From Thunnus maccoyii (lineage: Eukaryota > Chordata > Actinopteri > Scombriformes > Scombridae): a stretch of 64,000 bases of DNA. A program made the position numbers and the translations under genes. This document shows, piece by piece, positions 45,401 to 48,400 of the stretch (its first letter is position 1; every line of letters starts with the position of its first letter). Below the pieces are notes generated by a model, which saw only the letters and a program-made list of their open reading frames with translations, had not been told where the DNA came from and did not search any database. Location of the stretch: the NCBI RefSeq assembly GCF_910596095.1, contig NC_056545.1:22219067-22283066 (forward strand), in the 5' to 3' direction.

Positions 45401-48400
45401 TCATACCAAGTTACATCAGAGACTCTGCTGCTGCTGTCGTAGTTTACGACATCACAAGTAGGTGGATTATTTGTGCGCTCAGATGTCCTATAAACATGCC
45501 ACATCTACCTCGTTCTCTGTTATGTGTAGTGTATTTTATTTTGTGTCAAATCCACTTACATGCTAGGAGCTTTTTCTTTCTTTTTTACTTTTTTTACTTT
45601 TACTTTTTTACTCATAATTATTTGTAATTTAATGATTATTGTAATTCCTAATCAGAATTGCTTAATGTTATTTTACAAGTCTTTTAATTGTATACTAGTA
45701 TGTAATTTGCAGGTATTTAACAAAAGAAAAAACAGAAAAAGTGTTAATTTGGTTTAGTTGTAAGTGCTGATTCATTATATTTGGGTTCATACATAGTTGT
45801 TGATTTCCAAAAATTCTAAATAATTTAGACTCTTTACAATCCTTTAACTGACAGATAATACTTATTTTCAGGGTGTAGTTTCATGAGTCAAACTACATAT
45901 TTAGTATATTGGGTTGTTTCTCAAAAACTCAACAACGAGCACATTTCGTGTATACTACACAACAGCTACTTTTAGGAAAGACTGTACTTCCTCAGACGAC
46001 TGAGGAAGTATTGTGTCAAAAAACACCTGTTGGTCCACTTTTATTAAGCCATCGTAGAAATCATCCTCACATCATCTCTCACTGTTTGGTGTGACAGCTC
46101 AGCCAGTCACACAAAGAGGAAACTGGAGCATGTTGTCATGAAAGCCTCCAATGTAATTTGTTGTGTTTTTCCTCCAGTGAACTCACTGTATATAAAGCAC
46201 ACCTTCAACCGGGCAGCTAAAATAACCAGCGACCCCTCCCACCCAGCTTCTCCCCTCTGGACGGCACTACAAGTCCATAGTCACAACACTTAACACCCCT
46301 TGCTAGCCTCCTGTGCCATAAGATCTCATATACTGACCTGAATGCTCTGAATGCTCTGGACTGAACTCAGGCTGGATTTCGTGTACTGGTACATCAATCA
46401 TTGTACTGTCTGTCTATTGGACTACTTGACATGCTGGGGAACTGAACTGTACATTTCATATATATTCACTGTACATACGTACATTCATGTGTTTCCTTTC
46501 TGTGTGTGTTGTTGTAATGGTTTATGGAACCTGTTTGCTTGTTTTGCTCTTGCATTTGCAAGGGAACTGAGCTACCGTTTTGTACCAAACAACATCTATT
46601 ATTGAAAAAAACTAATATGCTAATATATTGTAACTACGTACTGAAAAGTTGTTTCTTTCTAAGAATTGTTAATCTAATTTATTTAGAGGTTTTGCAAATT
46701 AACAACCACATATGATCCCAAAGTGTGGGTACTTAGCAACTAAACCAACATTTTTTTTTCTGTTTTTTCTTATAATTTGTACCAAATTGCACCACCTTTT
46801 CTGTAAAATGTCCTAAAAATTAACATTTTAATACCTGCAAATTACTACTGAAAATTTCCAGGAAATTAGTATGAAATTAAGCAATCTGTAAAATAGAGCG
46901 TTACCCAGACTTGGGCCAAGATGTGGACGACTTGTACGCCCACTTCCTTATTGTCTCGTCCTGTCACAAACTCGCCTGTTTTCACAGATGAGCCTTTTCA
47001 TCTCCTGAACACTGATGCTCTGTTTCCTGTTTCCCCCTTGGTCTCTCTCACAGATGTCAACTCCTTCCAGCAAACCACAAAATGGATTGATGATGTGAGA
47101 ACGGAGAGAGGAAGTGATGTCATTATCATGTTGGTGGGAAACAAGACAGACCTTGCAGACAAAAGGTAATCTGTTCTTCCCTCCTCCTGCTTCTGTGCAA
47201 GTCAGCTCTCTCTATTGAGAGCATGCTAATGAAGTCATTGATCGCTGCTGCTGGCCTGTCAATACCGAGTGCCTCAGTCCTTCCTGAGGCAGCAATAGGT
47301 CAGAGCAAGTTATCTCTGCCCTTTCTGGATGTCAAAGCTGTGATTTCTTTTCATGCTAGATGCCCTCTCACATTATTTGAATATATCAATTATTTATTCC
47401 TTAATAGATCAAGCTGATAAGTAAATGAATGTGTAATATTTCTTCTGAAAGTAAAGTATGCACTGTCTTTCTCCCTGCATCTTTTTAACTCCTTTATCTA
47501 CCACAGGCAAGTATCTATTGAAGAGGGTGAGCGGAAAGCCAAAGAACTAAATGTAATGTTTATTGAGACTAGTGCGAAAGCAGGCTACAACGTAAAGCAG
47601 GTAAGAGTGTGTGTGAGTCGTGCTCTGTAGTCCTGCTGCAGACGCTGCCGCCTGGGCTCCACGTCCAAAGGTCATCCACCAAATTCAGAGGTCAGATGCC
47701 AACAAAAGATATTTAAGATTAGTCCAAGATTCACTTCTTAAAGAGGCATTTAAAATGTCCCAGCACCTTAGATTCATTGTTCTTGTTCCGTCCAATCACA
47801 AAACCTTCTCTCCCTGTTGTGGAAATCAGCTGACGCTCTGAACGGCCTGAAGGTCAACTGGTCAACTTTTGGTCTTGAGCAAAGGTGGCAGCAACAGCAG
47901 GAAGGGGCACGGCTTGTTCTTCCACTTCGACATAATTACAGTCTGTATTTTTTTCCCCCCCTTTGTCTTCTTGTAAATGTCTGTGGTGGTATGTGCGTGT
48001 TCCCCTGGATGTTTGTGTGTTGTGCGCGCTGACTCGTGGCTCATCGCAGACAGATAACCACAGAGGAGGGAGAACAGAGAGCGAAAGACATGAATGTTCT
48101 GTTTATTGAGACAAGTGCAAAGACAGGCTACAATGTCAAACAGGTAGAGCGTGTGCACCTTTGTGTGTGTGTTCATAATGCTCATGCTCTCTTCTGATTG
48201 GCTTCTATTTCACACACGCATGCGTGCATAAAGATGTGCTTTGAACAATGGCTTCCTCTGGTCATAAATGAGGTGTGTCGATTTGTTTTTCAAGCTCTCT
48301 CCCACCTGCTATAAGTAATGATTTGTACTGGCCAACATTTGTTCTTAAAGCTCTAGAGGTGGGTCGGAGTTTGCAAACAAATACTTCTACACTCTACTGA

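Follow-up and report, generated by a model that had tools for sequence, protein, structure and literature searches.

Predicted alternative exons 6a and 6b in rab6a of Thunnus maccoyii, a tandem pair that probably predates RAB6A, RAB6B and RAB41 as separate genes

Two adjacent exons of one Rab6 gene in Thunnus maccoyii encode the same stretch of the G domain in two versions. This raises the question of whether one gene can supply two forms of the protein, and when such a choice could have arisen. We have analysed the locus in a stretch of 64,000 nucleotides (the window), together with the other Rab6 genes of the same genome.

Exon structure of rab6a and the predicted fate of its transcripts

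The coding region of the gene is complete within the window on the plus strand. The exon borders, computed from the sequence, and the 3' neighbour are as follows.

42418..42487, plus strand: rab6a exon 1, coding part, 70 nt; donor GTAAGT
44494..44552, plus strand: rab6a exon 2, 59 nt
44662..44715, plus strand: rab6a exon 3, 54 nt
45352..45457, plus strand: rab6a exon 4 of the Rab6A' type (I62, A87, A88), 106 nt; donor GTAGGT
47054..47165, plus strand: rab6a exon 5, 112 nt; upstream partner of both 6a and 6b
47507..47600, plus strand: rab6a exon 6a, 94 nt; donor CAG/GTAAGA; residues 135-165 as in human RAB6A
48050..48143, plus strand: rab6a exon 6b, 94 nt; RAB6B-like; donor CAG/GTAGAG
48860..48926, plus strand: rab6a exon 7, 67 nt; downstream partner of 6a and 6b
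50081..50145, plus strand: rab6a exon 8, coding end and stop, 65 nt; C-terminus CAC
52543..54234, plus strand: open frames of dnajb13, the 3' neighbour of rab6a, located by PDB matches and by Pfam matches under the cut-off; the extent is approximate

The gene belongs with RAB6A. Over the constitutive exons compared (exons 3, 5, 7 and 8), human RAB6A is closest to it, with differences at 5 of 99 residues, while the three other Rab6 genes of the genome differ from it at 13 to 17 of 99, the lower figure being that of the gene called C8 below. In addition, dnajb13 adjoins it. For the frame at 53390-53593, the three top-scoring PDB matches are all DNAJB13 chains, and three other downstream frames have DnaJ and DnaJ_C matches, each under the Pfam cut-off. 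DNAJB13 lies near RAB6A on human 11q13 as well.

Exons 6a and 6b have the features of a tandem duplication. They are adjacent and homologous, equal in length and phase, and preceded by AG and followed by GT, with a gap of 449 nt between them. The first-pass annotation of this DNA had described two GT-AG exons of equal length and phase 449 bases apart, differing at about 27% of their bases and at nine residues (V136I to A159T); our computed borders (94 nt each), the base count (25 of 94, or 26.6%) and the nine residue changes all agree with that description. The differences fall on 5 first, 3 second and 16 third codon positions, and on the first base of the exon, which completes a split codon. 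When 6a was used as a query against either strand of the 64-kb window, 6b matched at 69 of 94 positions without gaps and the runner-up site at 43 of 94. The pair is therefore not a chance resemblance.

Some other features of the window can be recorded here. The last rab6a intron (48927-50080) starts with GTATCCTTT, and TTCCTTAAC is found some 15 nt short of its 3' border; we take these to be minor (U12-type) signals, and the last intron begins with GTATCCTTT in all four Rab6 genes found in the genome. A connexin gene lies at 17946-18938 on the minus strand (Pfam PF00029, E 9e-82). An open frame at 757-1299, also on the minus strand, is transgelin-like in appearance; a Pfam search with this fragment gave no match.

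The spliced coding sequence is 627 nt long with either 6a alone or 6b alone, and it then encodes 208 amino acids ending in CAC, with no internal stop. Earlier, it had been argued that exons of 94 nt break the frame when both or neither are used and give 208 residues when used singly, and the assembled sequences bear this out. With 6a and 6b together, a stop arises at nt 553-555 of the coding sequence, inside 6b. Since this stop falls 101 nt upstream of the last junction, nonsense-mediated decay is predicted for the double-exon transcript. With neither exon, the stop is at nt 469-471, in the last exon, and the product has 156 amino acids; such a transcript would be expected to escape decay. This difference between double use and no use is a point absent from the first-pass annotation. 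Joint use of 6a and 6b would shift the frame and bring in a stop where decay should act, so that the exons would be effectively exclusive. From their sequences, we predict mutually exclusive splicing of 6a and 6b.

Exon 6 types in the Rab6 genes of the genome

The two exons encode peptides of different types. The 6a peptide is identical to human RAB6A at 31 of 31 residues. For the 6b peptide, the best PDB match is human RAB6B (45.7 bits), followed by fly Rab6 (43.0) and human RAB6A (40.8). Five residues separate the types: I136, T137, Q143, R144 and T159 are present in all five 6b-type sequences (two fish 6b exons, two fish rab6b genes and human RAB6B), and V, S, R, K and A stand at the same positions in all four others (two fish 6a exons, human RAB6A and fly). 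Exon 6b has the RAB6B-type residue at each of the five. The first-pass annotation had likened Q-I-T, E-Q-R and the T after SAK to RAB6B, and the sequences of solved structures now agree with it. Between human RAB6A and RAB6B, 8 differences lie in residues 62-171, and 6 of them are in this 31-residue exon (hypergeometric P 0.006; residue 72, where the RAB6A chains used disagree and which is taken as an engineered change, is left out of the count).

Among the best candidates scored, there are at least four Rab6 genes in this genome: the window gene and one each on the contigs C8, C7 and C12 (the C8, C7 and C12 genes). A genome search with the 6b peptide (E <= 1) listed nine matches, six of which are in Rab6 genes (two window exons, two in C8, one in C7 and one in C12); the other three are weak, with 45-48% identity and E of 0.18-0.52. 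Pattern matches in viral contigs (1) and prokaryote contigs (37) were in no case confirmed, as expected for a fish gene.

The C8 gene (C8:20278000-20296000) also has the pair. A 6a-type exon is followed by a 6b-type exon, in the same order as in the window gene, and these are 94 nt each and 424 nt apart. The donor GTAGAG and the split-codon base A are common to the 6b exons of both genes. From exon 2 on, the exon lengths of the C8 gene equal those of the window gene, exon 1 being 79 versus 70 nt, and the C8 gene further has two copies of exon 4, of the Rab6A' and Rab6A types, 527 nt apart. Its 6a exon carries E140A, G141A, K146R and F152Y, which are absent from the other eight sequences compared, and has the donor GTTGGT; this copy may be under weaker constraint. 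In three comparisons between window and C8 introns, two gave short local similarity just above 60 shuffles (15 versus 14; 19 versus 16), and the third gave none above 60 shuffles. When the window was compared with 160 kb of C8, the only shared neighbourhood besides rab6 consisted of two short matches, at 34.0 and 59.4 kb of the window (best E 5e-6).

In both the C7 and the C12 gene, exon 4 occurs once, in the Rab6A form, and exon 6 once, in the 6b form, and we take the two as rab6b. The C7 gene, read from exon 3 on, is identical to human RAB6B at 109 of the 110 residues compared. In these two genes, neither a 6a-type remnant in introns 5 and 6 nor an A' exon in introns 3 and 4 was found above shuffles. 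The remnant searches comprised 11 tests on the forward strand with 60 block shuffles each; at least 7 of 60 shuffles reached each non-control score, and two positive controls stood out.

The identity of the C8 gene was approached through its neighbours. A PDZ exon is the nearest recognised neighbour on one side, and its best match is 1wi2 (58.8 bits, versus 36.5 for the next), an entry with a RIKEN name that we take to be mouse Pdzd11; PDZD11 is thus the neighbour looked for in a RAB41 gene. On the other side is an arrestin exon, for which cone arrestin scores 57.4 bits and beta-arrestin-1 is close at 55.3; for three arrestin-like frames near the gene, a Pfam search found no family. Since PDZD11 and ARR3 flank RAB41 on human Xq13, the C8 gene is most likely rab41, a label that leans on human gene order. 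Farther out are a SHIP2-like SH2 exon, a rhodopsin-type receptor and a SOX gene. As INPPL1, the SHIP2 gene, lies on human 11q13, RAB6A's own region, the SHIP2-like exon fits a shared duplicated block and not RAB41 in particular. A frame on C8 with a GDPD-like motif was set aside as neighbour evidence, Pfam having found no family for it.

Because the window gene differs from human RAB6A at only 5 of 99 residues versus 13 of 99 from the C8 gene, the sequences suggest that the C8 copy arose before the fish and human lineages parted, which would mean that it is no teleost duplicate of rab6a. In the available text of a published survey, Rab41 is confined to primates and dolphins (PMC3425129). The fish C8 gene suggests that Rab41 occurs beyond these groups.

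Age of the exon pair and alternative histories

The exon 6 copies cluster by type and not by gene, in trees that rest on 31 codons. Clustering by type takes 16 amino-acid parsimony steps versus 27 for clustering by gene, and on amino acids neither of the two trees arranged by gene passes the AU test (p 4e-7). When the six fish exons were analysed with a codon model, each of three histories arranged by gene was rejected (p-AU 0.0002-0.0009); with a nucleotide model, one was rejected (p-AU 0.03) and the other two were not (0.19 and 0.09). The split between 6a and 6b has a nucleotide bootstrap of 82.

Both exons are also under selection at the protein level. Between 6a and 6b of the window gene, pN/pS is 0.177 (bootstrap 95% 0.07-0.38, with 0 of 2000 values at 1 or above). 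When the window and C8 genes are compared, it is 0.066 for their 6b exons (12 synonymous and 3 non-synonymous differences) and 0.089 for their 6a exons. As synonymous sites are near saturation, these values are bounds and not dates. An old duplication under selection had been proposed when the pair was first noticed; the result of this dN/dS-type comparison of 6a with 6b strengthens that proposal, as does the presence of the pair in the C8 gene.

Since another Rab6 gene also carries the pair, it most likely predates the split of RAB6A, RAB6B and RAB41. We therefore hold, with good confidence, that 6a and 6b are a tandem pair, predicted to be alternatively spliced, that is older than this split. 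That the pair existed before rab6a, rab6b and rab41 separated is the simplest history, and the sharing of the switch with a second Rab6 gene is new beyond the first-pass annotation. The ancestral vertebrate Rab6 would have had both exon 6 types. After the split, RAB6B would have kept 6b and mammalian RAB6A 6a, with both retained in fish rab6a and rab41. The date that we infer is earlier than both genome duplications of the early vertebrates. In a C. elegans study (PMC4758642), T is reported at the place equivalent to residue 137 in Ypt6 and RAB-6.2, and its available text proposes an early-metazoan split of Rab6A and Rab6B, with the types treated as separate genes. On these two grounds, T137 may be ancestral (our residue 137 corresponds to 139 in the numbering of that study, a match made in the present analysis).

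Alternatively, exon 6b could have been copied from rab6b into rab6a after the genes had separated, by conversion or insertion, so that its likeness to RAB6B would be secondary. We regard this as unlikely. Exon 6b is indeed nearer in nucleotides to the two rab6b exons (78.5 and 80.6%) than to the neighbouring 6a (74.2%), and the branching order among the 6b-type exons has weak support (bootstraps 35 and 73). However, because the pair has the same order in two genes, copying requires that an exon was inserted twice into one and the same site, or once before the split. A recent copy is further opposed by third-position identity, which is 0.48 and 0.55 between 6b and the rab6b exons versus 0.48 between 6b and 6a.

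It is more doubtful still that 6b is a relic, intact in sequence with its splicing lost in Thunnus maccoyii. A relic would be in keeping with a weak donor (1.2 bits for 6b versus 7.0 bits for 6a, scored with general donor frequencies), with the pyrimidine-poor stretch just before its acceptor, and with E147D, L148M and M151L, three residues private to the window 6b among the nine sequences compared. Against this, 6b has no stop, frameshift or lost splice site, its donor is kept alike in the C8 gene, and the ratio of 12 synonymous to 3 non-synonymous differences from the C8 6b (pN/pS 0.066) is that of a constrained exon. Finally, separate later exon duplications in rab6a and the C8 gene, converging on RAB6B-like residues, are allowed by the nucleotide model alone (p-AU 0.19) and are highly improbable, given that the amino-acid and codon tests reject them, that each gene would have had to acquire the five separating residues on its own, and that the two 6b copies have the donor and split-codon base in common.

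Under the preferred reading, a tandem pair older than the split, the second switch of Rab6 can also be considered. Exon 4 was found only once in the window gene, in the Rab6A' form (I62, A87, A88), and a search of introns 3 and 4 for a Rab6A-type exon gave no match above shuffles. The A' copies of the window and C8 genes share the donor GTAGGT. In the nucleotide tree of exon 4, the A' copies are ungrouped and a bootstrap of 57 joins the two C8 copies. For this reason, the age of the exon 4 pair, for which three residues and the common donor speak, is less well supported than that of the exon 6 pair. We lean, with moderate confidence, to a single Rab6 gene before the duplications with both switches, exon 4/4' and exon 6a/6b, which would have given four proteins. 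Rab6A, Rab6A', RAB6B and RAB41 would then be leftovers of this gene, and fish rab41 would have the full set.

Splicing choice, possible roles and known systems

The strong donor of 6a, and the weak donor of 6b that is kept in the C8 6b, suggest that 6a is the default and 6b a regulated choice, with decay removing the double products. As for a device near the exons that would enforce exclusivity, none was found among a steric limit, intron types, pairing and fold. The gap of 449 nt is too long for steric exclusion. Both donors are GT, and no U12 signals were found at either. No inverted repeats of 12 or longer were found in the stretch that separates exon 5 from exon 7, and the RNA fold from 6a to 6b is unremarkable (z -0.40; of 20 shuffles, 7 were equally or more stable). 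Splice-factor motifs near 6a and 6b, counted without a control, gave no lead. Decay of the double product could be enough for exclusivity.

The switch would swap residues 135-165, and one gene could then supply a G domain with either a RAB6A-type or a RAB6B-type segment. In the Rab fold, these residues form the end of the G4 loop, helix alpha-4, strand beta-6 and the G5/SAK loop, and the segment of helix alpha-4 and the G5 loop lies away from the switch regions. Since the exon covers this segment, it is plausible that exon choice affects nucleotide handling, and 6b may alter nucleotide handling or partner binding. The GTP-binding activity of RAB6B is lower than that of RAB6A, according to work cited in PMC3735572, and RAB6A is described there as ubiquitous and RAB6B as mainly in brain. 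A brain bias of 6b may also be supposed. A long-read study in trout places Rab6a among the top genes with brain-specific alternative splicing (PMC8321248), and in a damselfish study rab6a is one of the genes whose splicing changes when a heatwave sets in (PMC8933327). These reports are consistent with the exon 6 switch and are not proof of it, since the available text of both names no exon; either could concern exon 4 or some other event.

Among the matches listed from the Rab6 and Rab41 literature, we found no description of the exon 6 pair; annotation may already hold predicted isoforms. If much of the core difference between RAB6A and RAB6B began as an alternative exon, the role of this segment could be tested by switching one exon in the fish gene, which would leave promoters and tails unchanged.

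One close comparison is the exon 4 switch of mammalian RAB6A. In the available text on Rab6A and Rab6A', this switch uses neighbouring mutually exclusive exons of the same gene, as predicted for exon 6, and it alters three residues of the G domain (PMC4758642, PMC3735572; mouse, PMC2898759). The mammalian switch covers residues 62-96, whereas the exon 6 pair covers 135-165. For exon 4, no second copy was detected in introns 3 and 4 of the window gene, while the C8 gene has both the exon 4 and the exon 6 pairs. RAB6B, the brain-enriched Rab6 gene, has the same I136, T137, Q143, R144 and T159 as exon 6b. However, RAB6B is a separate gene, and the fish rab6b genes have a single exon at this place, whereas 6b is predicted to be an alternative exon within rab6a. 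Ancient pairs of mutually exclusive exons that several copies of a vertebrate gene have in common are an already known kind of event, with the IIIb/IIIc exons of FGFR, the flip/flop exons of AMPA receptors and the 5N/5A exons of sodium channels as examples. There too, a tandem pair predates the gene copies and has been reduced in some of them. Unlike those pairs, the two Rab6 exons appear to have been divided by type among the gene copies, and thus six of the eight changes between human RAB6A and RAB6B in residues 62-171 would have come to lie in this one exon.
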